The notes beneath the pieces are model-generated. The model did no database searches, was not told the origin of the DNA, and saw only the letters and a list, made by a program, of their open reading frames with translations. This document shows, piece after piece, positions 4,400 to 10,453 of a DNA stretch of 64,000 nucleotides. A program made the position numbers and the translations under genes. How positions within the stretch are numbered: the stretch's first letter is position 1; each line of letters starts with the position of its first letter. This DNA is from Methanofollis ethanolicus (GTDB lineage: Archaea > Halobacteriota > Methanomicrobia > Methanomicrobiales > Methanofollaceae), in NCBI RefSeq assembly GCF_001571385.1, contig NZ_BCNW01000001.1, forward strand, positions 992,001 through 1,056,000, given 5' to 3'.

Positions 4400-4430
4400 A
4401 AAAGGACTCTGTTGAATCGCTCATGAAGCA
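4400..4430. other. Possible solitary insertion-sequence end
   Basis: GGACTCTGTTGAATCGCTCA (4404-4423) resembles the left terminus of the 2854 element, GGCTCTGTAGAAACCCTCAT, at most positions. No matching second end was found nearby. It may be a decayed terminus of the same family. Confidence 0.25.
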
Positions 4431-4519
4431 AAGTTACAAGCGGTTCTTTGAAAGCCACCTCAGTGGTTTTCATGGCCCCGGCAGAAGGTAGAGGGAAGGC
4501 GGCGGATCTGTGCTCCCTC

Positions 4520-4569
4520 CCCGGAGATTTTATACCCCCGGGACTTCAAATCCTCTGTAAAGTGCACGG
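4520..4569 (+). promoter_or_regulatory. TATA box of the DJ-1-like gene
   Basis: TTTTATACC (about 4528-4536) is placed for transcription start about 10 nt before the ATG at 4570. It is flanked by CCCCGGAG and CCCCGGGA, which form no clean palindrome. Confidence 0.45.
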
Positions 4570-5204
4570 ATGAAAGGTAGCGTCTATCTCTTCGCATGTC
4601 CTGCTTTTGCCGACTGGGAACCGCCGCTTGCGGTCTCCATGATCTCTGATACGAACAAAACATTCCCGAAAAACAGGAGTTACCGGGTGATCACCTTCGG
4701 GCTTTCGAAAGATCCGGTCATGTCGCTCGGCGGGATCACGGTCCTCCCAGACGTCGATGTCGGCGGGGTCGACCTTGCTGATGCGGCGATGGTGATCCTG
4801 CCCGGGTCGTCGTTCTACGAAAACCACGACCCTGCCGAACTGGCCTCTCTGATCCGGGAGTGCGTACGGCAAAAAATCCCCGTAGCGGCGATCTGGGGGG
4901 GGCGCTCTTCCTCGCACGACACGGGTTTCTTGACGCCGTCAGCCACACCAGTTGCGGTCCCGGGTGGCTGAAGGAGCACGCTCCCAACTATCGCGGGGAA
5001 GCGCAGTACGTTCATGTGCCGAGCGTCGCCGACGGCGGCATCATCACGGCAAACCCCTTCGGTTTCGTGGAGTTTGCCGCAGAGATCATCCGGGCGCTGG
5101 ACGTGTTCCCGCCCGAATTTCTCGAATTCTGGGTCCGCACCATCAAGACCGGCTACCTGAACGTCGATTCGGTCGACCCGACGGCGGGAAAGATGAAAGA
5201 GTGA
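4570..5204 (+). pseudogene. DJ-1/PfpI-family protein with a frameshift
   Basis: Two overlapping frames together encode one ~210-aa DJ-1/PfpI (type 1 glutamine amidotransferase-like) protein. Frame 1 gives MKGSVYLFACPAFADWEPPL to IPVAAI; the next frame gives GGALFLARHGFLDAVSHTSC to KMKE. The switch is at a run of eight G residues (4894-4901). In the family this spot is AAICGA with the nucleophilic Cys; here the codon reads TGG. Loss of one base from TGCGGGGGGG would explain both the missing Cys and the shift. It may be a true mutation or a homopolymer sequencing error. If intact, it would act as a cytosolic DJ-1-like hydrolase or chaperone. Confidence 0.75.
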
Positions 5205-5219
5205 GAAGTGGCGGCGGCG

Positions 5220-6323
5220 CTACGGCGACCTTTCGCGCGGCCCTGCCTCGACCAGGCCCCGCACCCACTCCCTGTTCGCCCAGAGAGCGCAGCCGCCGTG
5301 TGTCTCTGTCAGCCGCTCATGGTGGCTGCGGATCTCTTCGAGAAGGCCTGAACGAAGAGCGTCTTTCAGGGCCGTCTGCGTGAGGTTCGCATCGGAGAAG
5401 GGTGCCGCCGGGCATGGTTCGAGTCCTCCGGAGGCGTTGACGTGGACGAAGCCCCGGCCTGCGGCGAGGCAGCCGCCGTACATTCCTTCTTCGCCGGGAA
5501 AACCGATGAAGAGGGCAGGATACTCCTGGTTGAAAGCGGCGATCCGGGCGTTGAGCGACGCTCGCCGACCGTCGTCGAGGACCAGGCCGTCGGTGCCGGG
5601 TTCGATCGGGACGTACTCGACAAAGACGAAAGCCCGGGCACCCGCCTCCGTCATCTGCCCTATGAAGCCGCCGTCGGTGACGCGATCGAGGTTTTTGCCG
5701 GTGACCGTGACCGAGCAGCCGAAGAAGACCCACCGCTCCTTCAGCAGCGACGAGGCTGAGAGCAGGCGGTCGTAGACTCCCTCTCCCCGTCTGGCGTCGG
5801 TGTCGGCCCTGAACCCTTCAAGGCTGATCATCGGCACCAGGTTCCTCCTGGCCGCGATCCTGTCGGCCATCCCTTCATCGATCATGAGGCCGTTCGTGAA
5901 GACGACGAAGAGGAGGTGGGGGTGCTCTTCCGCGAGATTCAGGATCTCCCCGGCCCGAAGGAGAGGCTCGCCGCCGGCGAAGACGACCACCGAGACGCCC
6001 AGGTCGGACGCCTGCGCCACGACCGAGCCGAGTTGCTCCACGGTCATCTCAGGCGCCGCCTCACGCTGCTGCGCCCGCATGTAGCAGCCCCTGCAGGAGA
6101 GGTTGCAGCGCGACGTGAGCGAGATCATCATCACCGGTGGGACGAGGACGCCCTGCCGCTCATACTCCTGCCTGATCGATGCGGCCCGCCGCTGGCGGTA
6201 CAGGATCCTCGCCCCCGTGACGGCGAGCGCGGGGTCGGCGGCGGCGATCCCGAGCGCACGCGTGAGTGTGGATGCGATCACGCCGTCGAAAAGATCGCGG
6301 TAGCCTCCGTCTTCTTCGGTCAT
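5220..6323 (-). CDS. Radical SAM protein with C-terminal cysteine cluster
   Basis: The 367-aa protein has the radical SAM motif SRCNLSCRGCYM (Cys73, Cys77, Cys80) and the AdoMet-binding FAGGEPLLR. Its C-terminal third has further Cys residues (GMYGGC, LEPCPAAPF, HGGCALW) resembling a SPASM/Twitch-type auxiliary cluster, as in peptide-modifying and cofactor-maturing enzymes. The substrate is unknown; no precursor peptide is seen nearby. The ATG at 6323 is preceded by GTGAGGG and removes an unlikely Pro/Arg-rich extension. It lies 92 bp downstream of the flavodoxin-ferredoxin gene, a plausible electron donor. Confidence 0.88.
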   Translation of the reverse strand: MTEEDGGYRDLFDGVIASTLTRALGIAAADPALAVTGARILYRQRRAASIRQEYERQGVLVPPVMMISLTSRCNLSCRGCYMRAQQREAAPEMTVEQLGSVVAQASDLGVSVVVFAGGEPLLRAGEILNLAEEHPHLLFVVFTNGLMIDEGMADRIAARRNLVPMISLEGFRADTDARRGEGVYDRLLSASSLLKERWVFFGCSVTVTGKNLDRVTDGGFIGQMTEAGARAFVFVEYVPIEPGTDGLVLDDGRRASLNARIAAFNQEYPALFIGFPGEEGMYGGCLAAGRGFVHVNASGGLEPCPAAPFSDANLTQTALKDALRSGLLEEIRSHHERLTETHGGCALWANREWVRGLVEAGPRERSP

Positions 6324-6415
6324 GCCCTCACGCCTTCGGTCGCCGACGCCTTTTTCCCGACATTCAGGGGGATTTGCTGGCGATGCGATCCGCGGATCAT
6401 GCTGAAAGACCCGTT

Positions 6416-7234
6416 TCACCGATCGTGCAGGTTCACCGCCCGGGCTTGCGCCTCCATGTCCGCGACCTTCACGTCGGGGTGGCGGTACCGCCCCCGCCCT
6501 TCCGTGCCCAGCAGCATGCGGAACTGGATCGCCTCGACCGGGCAGAAGTGGAGACAGGCGCAGCAGAGTTCGCAGCGGTGGCTCCATGCCGGCCGGCCGT
6601 CGACGATCTCGATGTTGGCTGCCGGGCAGACCTTTGCGCAGGTTCCGCAGCCGGTGCAGGCGTCCGATGCGGAGAAGTCCCTGTCCGCCCCGTGCACCTG
6701 TCTGCTGAAAGGCCCGTAGGTCAGGGCCTTCATCACTGCGGAGATGGGAGCGAACCCCGGCTGGGCGGCACGCCCGCGGCCGATCGCCTCCGCGATCTCT
6801 CCGAGGTGTCTGTCGGCGGCCGCCAGGATCTCGTCGCGCTTCGCCCCCGAGGGCGGGCGGAACAGCGGCGGGAAATTTCCCGGCATCCTGACCGCAAAGG
6901 CGGCGTCGAGCCTTTTGTCCTGCCGCCTCCTGAAGATGCCGTCCAGCTGGTGGAGGGCGGAGATGCCCATGCCGCCCATCGTGACGACCGCGAAGACGTA
7001 GTCCGTCCGGGAGAGGTCGAGCCTCCCGGCAAACTCCGCCACCATCACCGGCACGCCGCCGTCGTAGACCGGGCAGACGATCCCCAGGCGTCCTGTCTCA
7101 GGGACGACGTTACCATCTGTGTTCTGCAGCGATGCGATGGGGATTAACTCGCAGTCCCCGAGGTCTGCGGCGATCTTCCTTGCGGCGGCAAGTGAGTTGC
7201 CGGTGCCGGTGAAGTAGTAGATGACGGTTTTCAT
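6416..7234 (-). CDS. EFR1-type flavodoxin-ferredoxin protein
   Basis: The 272-aa protein joins a flavodoxin-like domain (about 1-165; YYFTGTGNSLAAA as the FMN phosphate loop) to a two-[4Fe-4S] ferredoxin domain (CTGCGTCAKVCP and CELCCACLHFCP, about 200-240). EFR1-family proteins shuttle electrons in anaerobes; partners are mostly unknown. The start overlaps the stop of the upstream ArsR-flavodoxin gene by four bases (ATGA), showing translational coupling. It likely supplies low-potential electrons, perhaps to the radical SAM enzyme encoded downstream. Confidence 0.9.
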   Translation of the reverse strand: MKTVIYYFTGTGNSLAAARKIAADLGDCELIPIASLQNTDGNVVPETGRLGIVCPVYDGGVPVMVAEFAGRLDLSRTDYVFAVVTMGGMGISALHQLDGIFRRRQDKRLDAAFAVRMPGNFPPLFRPPSGAKRDEILAAADRHLGEIAEAIGRGRAAQPGFAPISAVMKALTYGPFSRQVHGADRDFSASDACTGCGTCAKVCPAANIEIVDGRPAWSHRCELCCACLHFCPVEAIQFRMLLGTEGRGRYRHPDVKVADMEAQARAVNLHDR

Positions 7235-8142
7235 GGTCTTTCGTCTCCGTTTTCGGTTCTGTTTTGCGCCTCTTCGCTGGAATCGCGGAGGGGGTACGCT
7301 TCGACGATCCGACCGATGAGATCGGTGTCCGCGTTTCTGATTTCTACGTCCTCCTGCGTGAGGCTGATTTCGGTCACGACCTCCACTCCCCGCGAAGCGA
7401 GCGCCTTCCTGAGGAGGGGGAGGGCTTCGCCGGGCTGGCCACAGCAGGTGACGAAGACCACGGCCTTCTTCCCCTCGCAGCCTGAAAGCGCCTTTACGGC
7501 GGCATTGATCGGCGGGGCCGGCTTCCAGGCCCAGACCGGCGTGCCGATGATGAGCAGGTCGTAGGGCGAGACGTCGATCTCTTCGGGAACGATCGGATCG
7601 CAGGCCCCTTTCCGCGAGCGCAGGACGCCGGTCGTGTATGCGGTGAAGGTTGAGTAGTCCTTCTGTGTCTTCACCTCCACGAGATCGCAGCTGCAAGCAC
7701 TCTGTATCTGGCGGGCGACGTTCCGGGTCACGCCGGTATAGGAGTAATAGACGACGCAGGCGTTCAGGGCGGTGCTCCGTATCGTCCTGCGGACCATCTC
7801 CCGGTCGCACGTGTCCATCACGCTGGCGTACATCTGATCGAGGTACTCCCTGAGCGTCACCATCCGGTCCCGGTTGATGGTGTGGTAGACATACAGTCCC
7901 TCCCGCCGGGACTCGACAATCCCCACCCCTTTCAGGGTCTTGAGGTGCTGGGAGGCGGCCGGCTGGGAGATGCCGAGCCTTTCCGCAAGATCGGAAACCC
8001 CGAGTTTTCCCGTCGTATCCGTCGCCAGCAGGTAGATGATCTTGAGCCTGGTGAGGTCGCCGAGGACCTTGAAAGCTCCTGCCATCTCGGAAACGATCTT
8101 GCAGAGCCTGTCGTCGGCATCGCATCTGTTACGTGCGCCCAT
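7231..8142 (-). CDS. ArsR-type regulator fused to a flavodoxin domain
   Basis: The 303-aa protein starts with a winged-helix ArsR domain (about 15-95: FKVLGDLTRLKIIYLL, LGISQPAASQHLKTLKG). After a linker comes a flavodoxin domain (about 128-275: VVYYSYTGVTRNVARQIQ, YDLLIIGTPVWAWKPAPP, KAVVFVTCCGQPGEA). Classical ArsR metal-binding Cys pairs are absent from the HTH region, though Cys residues occur in and after the linker. The fusion suggests DNA binding controlled by flavin redox state. It is the first gene of a three-gene operon and probably regulates it. Confidence 0.88.
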   Translation of the reverse strand: MGARNRCDADDRLCKIVSEMAGAFKVLGDLTRLKIIYLLATDTTGKLGVSDLAERLGISQPAASQHLKTLKGVGIVESRREGLYVYHTINRDRMVTLREYLDQMYASVMDTCDREMVRRTIRSTALNACVVYYSYTGVTRNVARQIQSACSCDLVEVKTQKDYSTFTAYTTGVLRSRKGACDPIVPEEIDVSPYDLLIIGTPVWAWKPAPPINAAVKALSGCEGKKAVVFVTCCGQPGEALPLLRKALASRGVEVVTEISLTQEDVEIRNADTDLIGRIVEAYPLRDSSEEAQNRTENGDERP

Positions 8143-8180
8143 GCAACTGCATAATGATATGCTTATATTGTTATATAATT
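8138..8180 (-). promoter_or_regulatory. Promoter and candidate operator of the redox cassette
   Basis: On the minus strand a TTATATAA box (about 8171-8178) sits about 30 bp before the ATG at 8142. Between them are the inverted repeats ATGCA-GT-TGCAT (8141-8152, covering the start codon) and GCATA-TCAT-TATGC (about 8149-8162). A dimeric ArsR protein bound here would block transcription start, so autoregulation is plausible. Confidence 0.5.
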
Positions 8181-8398
8181 TTGCGCAGGCCCACCGTACA
8201 AGCGGGAGGCGGAGAGGCCGATCAACGCTATCATGTGGAAAAAAGAACCTTGTCAGCGCGGTTTATTTTCTGCCTGCGACTCGGTGCGGTGTTTCGTCGG
8301 CCTGCCCCTCTCCACCCACACAGAAAAAGGAACGGCGGTTATAACTCCTGTCAGGAATATCTGTTGTAACTGAATACGGCCAGGAGCACTTTCTGGCA

Positions 8399-8765
8399 AC
8401 AGGGGATTGGAGATGTCTCGTGGTACGCGTTCTTCACGATGCTGGAGTAAACGTGCCGGAAGTACGGGAAGACTCTCCTGAAGATCGGACGGTTCGATCC
8501 CTCCTCAAAGATATGCAGTAACTGTGGGCATCTCAAGCAGGATCTTGCCCTCTCTGACAGGGAGTGGATCTGTCCTGATTGTGGTATTCATCACGACCGC
8601 GATGTCAACGCGGCGATCAATATCAAGAAGTTTGCCCTGCAAGAACAGAATCTTGTTGGGGTATCAGGTGCGGAACGCACCGTTGAGCCTGTGGACTTGC
8701 CTCAGGAGAGGGAGGATGAAGCAGGAAGCCACGCCCAACAGGCGCGTGGTAGTTCACCCCGGTAA
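8399..8765 (+). pseudogene. 3' remnant of an IS200/IS605-family TnpB gene
   Basis: The frame encodes DVSWYAFFTMLE, an in-frame TAA (8448-8450), then RKYGKTLLKIGRFDPS and the TnpB zinc finger (CSNCG, CPDCG) followed by HHDRDVNAAINIKKFA, the last catalytic Asp region of the RuvC-like nuclease. Everything upstream of the C-terminal third is missing and the TAA replaces the usual Tyr-Lys. The stop at 8763 lies across the truncated end of the permease gene on the other strand. It cannot encode an active nuclease; its 3' end might still keep guide-RNA sequence. Confidence 0.85.
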
Positions 8766-9168
8766 AGAGGAGGATGACGGCGATGATCAGCGCGTGCTTT
8801 CCGGCGGCGCTCCACGCTGCGGGGAGGTACGACGCCCCGTAACTCCCGAAGGCGTAGGCGTAGAGCGCGATCATCACGATATAACTCTCCCAGAGCAGGA
8901 CGTTCAGTCCGCCCGAGAGTAGACCTCCTCCGAAGGCTTTGTCCAGGAACCTGGTGGTTCCGCCCGCACTCGGGAACGCCACCGAGAGACGGGCGTACGA
9001 GTACGAGGTGACGAGAGCGACGATCCCCGCCAGGAGAAACGCGACCGGTGTCCCTCCCTTCCCGAGGTCCGCGGCAAGGCCGAGAACGGCGAAGATGCCG
9101 CCGCCGACCATCCCGCCGATCCCGATGGCGACGACCTGGACGAGGCCGAGACTCCGGTTCGCCGTTAT
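8752..9168 (-). pseudogene. APC-family amino acid permease, 3' truncated
   Basis: The frame starts TANRSLGLVQVVAIGIGGMV and continues GGGIFAVLGLAADLGKGGTP, the N-terminal helices of an APC-superfamily transporter. After about 140 residues (VILLFTGVNY) it runs into the TnpB remnant, losing the remaining helices. At the expected start the codon is ATA (9166-9168) rather than ATG, overlapping the TAA of the upstream permease; an original ATGA overlap changed by one base is likely. Both changes indicate decay. Confidence 0.7.
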
Positions 9169-10414
9169 CTCCTCTCCTTCCCGATGAACTCCCTGATCTC
9201 GGCGGCCGCACGCTCTCCTTCTGGCGTGTCCTCGATGACGAAAAAGAGCGTCCCGGCAAGGAGGGCCGCGCCCCCGGCCGCCAGGACCGACAGGGGAAGG
9301 GTGACGAGCATGGGGATGCAGGAACCCGCGCCGACCAGGGGGAGGAGAGGGCCGAACGGAACCTTGAAGTAGGTCCGATCATCGGGGACGGTGTTGGTGA
9401 GATCGACGATCACCCCGAGGTTTCCGAGGAGGATCAGTCCTGCCGCGACGCCTGCCGAAGAAGCACGGCATTCGCCGGCTTTTCGCCCCTGAGGGCGGCA
9501 AAAAGTCCGGCGATCTGCTTTTCGGCCGCCATCGTGAGGATCGCCCTGGAACCGCCGATGATGTTGGCGTTCGCCGCCGAGAGCGTGGAAAATATCGCCC
9601 CGAGAGCGATGATCGTCTCTCCCCATCCGCCGAAGAAGACGACCGCGGCATCGAAGAGGCTGCTATCGCCGTACTCCGGAAGATGGGCGGCCAGGAGGGC
9701 GACCTCGACGCCGCAGTAGATCACGGCGACGATCCCGATCGAGGCGAGGGTGGCGAGGGGGAAGACCCGCGCCGAACTCCTGATCTCGCCGCCCATCATC
9801 GTCGCGACCTGGAAACCGAGATAGGCGAAGAAGACCATCGCAACACCGTCGAACATCGTACCGGTCCCGTGGGGGAAGAAGGGTGTGAGGTCTGCAGGCG
9901 TGAGATATGTCGCCCCAACGGCCGCCACCAGGGTAAGGATGGCGATCTTCACTGCGACGAGGGCCACCTCGGCCCGTCCGGCCTCGGCGGTGCTCCTCAG
10001 GTTGAGGACAGTGAGCAGGGCGAGACCCGCAAGGGCTGCGGTCCTGGGGTCGAAGGCAGTGCCGAGAAGGCGGTTTGCATAGATGCCGAGGCCGAGAAGG
10101 ACGAAGGCCGAGGCGATGGTGACGCTGATGTACATCCCCCACCCGGCAAGAAAACCGGGATACGGCCCGAGCATCCGGTGGGCATAGAGATATCCGCCAC
10201 CGTCGCCCGGGCAGATGCTCGCAAGGACGGCATAGGACAGACCGGTGAAGGCGACGAGGATACCGCAGAGATATGACAGAATGGCCGAGGGCCCGGCCGT
10301 CTGTATCATGAGGCCGGAGAGCACGAAAACTCCTGCTCCTACCATGTTTCCGACTGCGAGGGCGACCGCGGTGCCTGCGCTGAGCCTACCGCTGCGGGTG
10401 TAACCGTCGTCCAT
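9165..10414 (-). pseudogene. APC-family amino acid permease, frameshifted
   Basis: The first 315 residues (MDDGYTRSGRLSAGTAVALA, NMVGAGVFVLSGLM to RGEKPANAVLL) are a normal APC transporter with about ten membrane helices. The frame then changes near 9450-9470, and the rest (AAGLILLGNLGVIVDLTNTV to FIGKERR) is read in another frame down to 9165. The joined product would be about 415 aa, normal for the family. It is the first of two damaged tandem permease genes. A single-base sequencing error is the alternative, but the neighbouring decay favours a real lesion. Confidence 0.7.
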
Positions 10415-10453
10415 CAGGTTACAGCCATGTCCCTTCGGTAAAAAAAGAGATCC

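Follow-up and report, generated by a model that had tools for sequence, protein, structure and literature searches.

How the state of the low-potential flavodoxin and ferredoxin pool is sensed in strict anaerobes is, to our knowledge, poorly known, and a protein in which a DNA-binding domain is joined to a flavodoxin raises the question of whether an electron carrier can itself serve as the sensor for the genes that it heads. Such a protein is encoded in a stretch of Methanofollis ethanolicus DNA of 64,000 nucleotides (the window, that is, the whole stretch that was analyzed), where three genes, all on the minus strand, encode the putative regulator, a flavodoxin-ferredoxin protein of the EFR1 family, and a radical SAM (rSAM) enzyme, respectively.

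The fused regulator and its origin

The features of the regulator are as follows.

7231..8142, minus strand: ArsR-flavodoxin fusion regulator, 303 aa (Pfam HTH_5 and Flavodoxin_4 over cut-off; structure model; one of 39 single-ORF fusions)
7876..8109, minus strand: ArsR-type winged helix, residues 12-89 (Pfam, model, and Foldseek matches to ArsR, NolR, and SmtB structures)
7297..7761, minus strand: flavodoxin fold, residues 128-282 (Pfam, model, and Foldseek)
7726..7743, minus strand: predicted FMN phosphate-binding loop SYTGVT, residues 134-139 (S134, G137, and T139 invariant, 25 of 25 aligned)
8101..8124, minus strand: C7 and C14, remnants of the relatives' N-terminal CX2CX2CX3C, with R and D at positions 4 and 10 (alignment)

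A reading of the sequence alone had pointed to the fusion of a DNA-binding domain with a flavodoxin as unusual, and the fusion is borne out: both domains lie in one open reading frame and exceed their Pfam gathering scores, with HTH_5 at E 1.4e-14 (54.2 bits against 22), which places the N-terminal part among the ArsR winged-helix domains, and Flavodoxin_4 (PF12682) at E 7.5e-9 (35.7 bits against 24). The AlphaFold model (mean pLDDT 84, pTM 0.58) comprises the winged helix, a single long connecting helix (residues 91-123), and an intact, complete flavodoxin fold (residues 128-282). With unrelated membrane receptors at high rmsd set aside, the top PDB matches in Foldseek were flavoproteins, including the FMN complexes 3edo and 3klb, and the other domain matched ArsR-family structures. 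The winged helix is thus common, by sequence and by fold, to the regulator and the ArsR/SmtB family (SmtB, NolR, and ArsR 6j05), from which the regulator differs in having no metal-site Cys/His residues in the known places and in its added flavodoxin domain. Stand-alone Flavodoxin_4-type flavoproteins (3edo, 3klb, and 4ici) have the fold, the phosphate loop, and a PVW-type loop in common with the regulator, but in the latter the flavodoxin is tethered to a DNA-binding domain.

The phosphate-binding loop motif of flavodoxins, which we take to be S/T-x-S/T-G-x-T, is present in the regulator, with S134, G137, and T139 invariant and residue 136 being S or T. Also invariant in the 25 aligned fusions are Y163, P202-V203-W204-A205, and P237-G238. 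The invariance of the loop residues argues for a working flavin site, and flavin redox sensing by the regulator is plausible; sensor and carrier could not be told apart by the net charge of this domain. In addition, C112, located in the helix leading to the flavodoxin, is invariant (25/25). An N-terminal CX2CX2CX3C motif, the spacing of which resembles that of a ferredoxin 4Fe-4S motif, was found in 23 of the 39 readable fusions (40 less the masked one of G193), and the separate ArsR protein of G102 has it as well; the motif might alternatively form a zinc site. The motif is missing in the other 16 fusions, including the window's copy, which cannot hold the cysteine centre of its relatives, because only C7 and C14 are kept.

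These cysteines bear on the automatic name of the protein, that of a metalloregulator (NF033788, 78.5 bits against a cut-off of 55), according to which it would be an ordinary ArsR/SmtB sensor of a metal or metalloid. The four-cysteine motif of the relatives could indeed bind metal, but the window's copy has two N-terminal cysteines only, and the metal motifs of known ArsR proteins, which we take to be an alpha-3N CXC or an alpha-5 Asp/His, were not found in the aligned fusions, the alpha-3 region (LGVSEL in relatives) lacking CXC and the alpha-5 region lacking a conserved His pair. Since the known ArsR metal sites are absent, metal sensing is not the leading view, and we consider it very improbable.

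A contiguous ArsR-plus-flavodoxin match was found in 40 of the 199 genomes sampled from the order, 39 of them with a single open reading frame. A stop codon parts the ArsR domain from the flavodoxin in G175, the two are adjacent overlapping genes in G102, where the ArsR start codon is unclear, and G104 has a broken ArsR stretch beside a flavodoxin. No full-length fusion was detected outside the order in 392 genomes of the phylum. Among the matches listed in a scan of the whole GTDB collection, fusions occurred only in contigs titled Methanoculleus, Methanoregula, Methanospirillaceae, Methanoregulaceae, Methanomicrobiales, or Euryarchaeota, and the matches listed from outside the order, bacteria included, were ArsR-only or flavodoxin-only. 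The 39 fusions cluster as a single group (support 100/98) in a tree built from 77 flavodoxin domains, with the window's domain beside the Methanoculleus-type fusions (99/85), and the three adjacent-but-split pairs are placed among stand-alone flavodoxins. Thus, the fusion most likely arose once. The ArsR-flavodoxin regulator is a real, conserved architecture, of which no published description was found in the open-licence literature.

The same data inform an alternative in which the flavodoxin domain senses nothing and is a mere electron carrier fused to a neighboring regulator, the response arising through cysteines such as C112. The invariance of C112, the separate adjacent ArsR and flavodoxin genes of G102 and G175, and a second flavodoxin after the fusion in 18 of the 40 loci would all fit such an arrangement. 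However, the tree does not derive the split pairs from the fusion, and the fusion, of single origin, persists unbroken in 39 genomes at identities of 46-72%, even though a single stop codon would suffice to release the carrier; we regard a non-sensing flavodoxin as unlikely.

The predicted operator and probable autoregulation

Ahead of the regulator gene lies one further feature.

8147..8175, minus strand: candidate operator/promoter site over the TATA box, 4 nt before the start codon (position and dyad conserved in relatives; single site in the window)

Inverted repeats over the promoter and start codon had been read as a sign of autoregulation, and an inverted repeat is indeed present before the start codon, at the position listed. 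The stretches upstream of 41 genes (39 fusions plus the separate ArsR genes from G175 and G102) were compared, and in 39 of the 41 a 29-bp site that fits TATAAGTGTATAAGCAAACACTTATACAG scored above 20 bits, ending 2-7 nt before the start codon; the two misses were L030, for which a wrong start had been taken (the site appears as G186), and L083 (G102), which has no good site. Random 112-nt pieces from these loci, used as a control, gave best scores averaging -38, with the highest values belonging to unmasked true sites. A search of the 199 genomes for the 18-bp core of the site, with at most one mismatch allowed, returned 24 matches in 24 genomes, all directly upstream of the fusion gene; there were none in genomes without the fusion and none with the reversed control. 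The window's own site, in which 8 of 29 positions deviate from the consensus, is too diverged to be among these 24, and the operator pattern, built from the relatives plus the window, matched once in the window and not at all in 100 shuffles. With a lax version of the pattern, 19 sites were found in the genome of the window and 79 in the control, so that it carries no information, and a scan for bacterial promoters, which is unsuited to archaea, found nothing.

With a conserved dyad over the TATA box and a core exclusively upstream of the fusion gene, local autoregulation of the operon is well supported by sequence comparison, and the regulator very probably controls the cassette through a dedicated predicted DNA site. 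Because the predicted operator overlaps the TATA box, its occupancy by the protein should prevent initiation. The promoter itself may account for part of the operator's conservation, but the TATA box alone does not explain the dyad and the exclusive pairing with the fusion gene.

An analogous precedent for a helix-turn-helix (HTH) protein with a sensor domain and redox-dependent binding to its own promoter is MsvR, which is a methanogen regulator with an N-terminal HTH, a C-terminal V4R sensor domain, and cysteines, and which binds a conserved motif at its own promoter in a redox-dependent manner and represses by blocking promoter elements (PMC3729527). The likeness to the fusion regulator lies in a methanogen HTH combined with a C-terminal sensor and cysteines and in the motif at the own promoter (PMC3729527). 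The sensor of MsvR is V4R, whereas the fusion regulator has a flavodoxin instead; no V4R domain was found among its Pfam matches to E 0.01, and the protein thus falls outside the MsvR type.

The modular cassette and its radical SAM enzyme

The remainder of the cassette and its surroundings comprise the following features.

6416..7234, minus strand: EFR1 family flavodoxin-ferredoxin protein, 272 aa (NF038196 E 5.2e-68; 4Fe-4S domains)
7231..7234, minus strand: ATGA stop/start overlap of the regulator and EFR1 genes (read in the sequence)
5220..6323, minus strand: rSAM enzyme, 367 aa (PF04055; aligned relatives; model pLDDT 81)
6084..6107, minus strand: rSAM CX3CX2C cluster motif, C73, C77, and C80 (invariant in the alignment)
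5289..5471, minus strand: rSAM auxiliary cysteines C285, C304, and C345, C-X13-G-X4-C ... C (invariant, 23/23)
4404..10439, no strand: variable island holding the cassette (blastn to L304-L306; missing from two close relatives and rearranged in another; rSAM remnant)

The EFR1 protein (P0002) is a clear member of its family (229.7 bits against a cut-off of 75), with no difference noted, and the four-base overlap of its gene with that of the regulator was read correctly at the outset. The third protein belongs to the radical SAM superfamily, as indicated by PF04055 (E 1.3e-17 in Pfam) together with CX3CX2C; 6323 was chosen as its start, this being the beginning of the conserved N-terminus. None of its six cysteines (C73, C77, C80, C285, C304, and C345) varies across 23 aligned relatives, and the auxiliary cysteine cluster that had been proposed is thus represented by three C-terminal cysteines. 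We take the twitch-type motif to be C-X9-15-G-X4-C plus one further cysteine, and find it as C285-X13-G299-X4-C304 and C345; the seven-cysteine C-terminal motif that we take as the mark of the SPASM subfamily is not present, only three C-terminal cysteines being invariant in the 23 relatives. In the model, which is weak around the cluster loops, the core is preceded by two long helices at the N-terminus, and Foldseek ranked SkfB, SuiB, and anSME best, followed by MoaA and viperins, fold matches of the model that denote general kinship and no assignment. The enzyme resembles the SPASM/twitch enzymes (SkfB, SuiB, anSME, NirJ, and AhbD) in core fold and auxiliary-cluster cysteine pattern, and differs from them in having three auxiliary cysteines only, a two-helix N-terminal extension, and no equivalog match.

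Two specific roles for this enzyme were considered and rejected. A RiPP maturase was suggested by the top ranks of SkfB and SuiB, but the N-terminus of the model consists of two long helices; moreover, no short conserved peptide gene adjoining the rSAM gene came up in the seed-based maps. As for a viperin or defence role, the scores (NF038283, 43.7 bits against a cut-off of 180; PADLOC pVip, 46.6 bits) amount to generic rSAM similarity.

The downstream chains of all 40 loci were mapped by tblastn with 12 seeds, on the same strand and with gaps of up to 1,000 bases. EFR1 was present in 32 loci, the rSAM enzyme in 25, a NapH-like membrane ferredoxin in 21, and a further flavodoxin in 18; rarer members were the small membrane protein Mem8 (12), another flavodoxin, Flv11 (12), and an FMN-reductase-like protein (7). 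EFR1 and rSAM occur together in 21 of the 40. Where present, the rSAM gene is the last in 17 of 25 loci, followed by Flv11 only in 7 and by other genes in 1. It is missing in 10 of the 35 loci whose contig continues (the contigs of G091, G094, G185, G189, and G193 stop within 100 bases of the last chain gene), and in five of the eight Methanoculleus-type fusions the chain has no rSAM gene despite a continuing contig (G067, G058, G075, G111, and G156). The window's precise chain (regulator, EFR1, rSAM, and nothing more) recurs in G169, and G099 has it inside the 1,000-base limit, with NapH further on. Furthermore, related rSAM genes without the fusion adjoin a TetR gene in L093, L096, L244, and, by clustering, L249, one of these pairs having an FMN-reductase-like gene in between.

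The sequence-only reading had suggested an operon that feeds electrons to an rSAM reaction and had named, as checks, a survey of the three-gene order and of the neighborhoods for a conserved substrate gene. The regulator-first order is conserved, but the exact three-gene order is uncommon among relatives; electron supply to the rSAM enzyme is not a constant role, given its presence in only 25 of 40 loci; and no conserved substrate gene was found in the seed-based chains. Since additional flavodoxins, NapH-like ferredoxins, or a small membrane protein occur in most loci, the window's set is a reduced form, and the absence of rSAM from 10 of 35 loci and its pairing with TetR in four others make carriers and rSAM separable. 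As read from gene order, the cassette is modular, with the regulator and carriers of the EFR1, flavodoxin, and NapH types as its shared core and the rSAM enzyme as a frequent client.

Several observations were made alongside. Mem8 (L079 5957-6577) is a conserved membrane protein of about 200 aa encoded between carriers and rSAM, without a Pfam or NCBIfam match, and a conserved 64-aa protein without a Pfam match is encoded just upstream of the regulator in several Methanoregula-type loci (L079 10483-10677). A locus from a different family (L256 8700-9690) has an ArsR gene directly before a broken EFR1 gene, a regulator-carrier pairing in unfused form.

Within the window's genus, the fusion was found in 1 of 12 genomes, namely the window's own. 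The stretches matching the window up to 4403 and from 10440 adjoin in G051 and G045 (blastn). In G039, in which a neighboring protein is 98% identical to that of the window, only the first 31 codons of the rSAM gene are left, and a gene for a 1291-aa DUF4062/STAND NTPase is found where the remainder would lie. On account of this remnant, the cassette was probably present in the ancestor common with G039 and lost there; the island thus probably comes and goes, and the sister genomes without the cassette indicate that it is dispensable. The NTPase gene (L304 5740-9615), which stands in place of the regulator and EFR1 genes, has a defence-like architecture and no PADLOC match. Elsewhere in the island, a DJ-1/PfpI-type gene adjoining the rSAM gene (4570-5204, plus strand) appears frameshifted, by decay or possibly sequencing error, its L304 counterpart being intact (211 aa; DJ-1_PfpI, E 6.7e-17), and two amino-acid permease genes (8623-10414, minus strand) look broken, one frameshifted near 9440 and one truncated; L304 holds an intact 439-aa counterpart of the first.

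A patchy, island-like distribution would also suit an alternative in which the flavodoxin domain senses not redox balance but a bound small molecule (a quinone, a flavin, or a xenobiotic to be reduced), with the cassette as a detoxification or repair set and the regulator as its substrate-responsive repressor. TetR proteins are often ligand sensors, and the occurrence of the same rSAM family with TetR in four loci, once with the intervening FMN-reductase-like gene, points in this direction. Nevertheless, the partners that dominate the seed-based maps are EFR1, NapH, and flavodoxin carriers, and no recurrent transporter or detoxification enzyme was seen among the clusters viewed in the 12-seed maps. 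Small-molecule sensing appears rather doubtful to us.

Proposed mechanism and its significance

Redox sensing via the flavodoxin seems the most likely mechanism, and the reading towards which we lean, if only somewhat, is that the fusion protein, as a one-component regulator, autogenously represses the operon that encodes it, with the FMN of the flavodoxin as the redox sensor for the carrier genes. It starts from what can be read in the DNA, that is, the fusion, the intact fold with its flavin loops, the gene order, and the dedicated predicted operator. From these we infer an ArsR-type dimer that would bind the dyad TATAAG-N6-CTTATA over the TATA box and start region and, when bound, would bar archaeal initiation factors and RNA polymerase from the promoter. 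The flavodoxin domain would bind FMN and serve as the sensor, and in most relatives CX2CX2CX3C may add a second input, as the probable N-terminal site of an Fe-S or other metal centre. Changes in the flavin (and in the metal centre) would travel along the long linker helix and alter the affinity for DNA, such that low-potential carriers (EFR1, flavodoxins, and NapH-like ferredoxins) would be made upon a shift in the electron supply of the cell. For the window's EFR1 carrier, the neighboring twitch-type rSAM enzyme is the probable recipient of electrons. A more elaborate version, which we put forward tentatively and would not bank on, has two redox centres in one chain, the flavodoxin FMN and the Fe-S-like N-terminal four-cysteine site, reading the low-potential electron pool through the type of carrier that the protein controls, with the window's copy as a flavin-only descendant.

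With the flavodoxin as the likely sensor, one operon, and one dedicated predicted operator, the question of sensing becomes testable with one protein and one 29-bp DNA, and natural variants with and without the second cysteine centre add to this testability. The cassette also draws attention to an uncharacterized rSAM enzyme of the twitch type and to the carriers that likely donate its electrons. Overall, a switch that combines DNA binding with an electron carrier and heads electron-transfer genes suggests a reader of the cell's electron supply.
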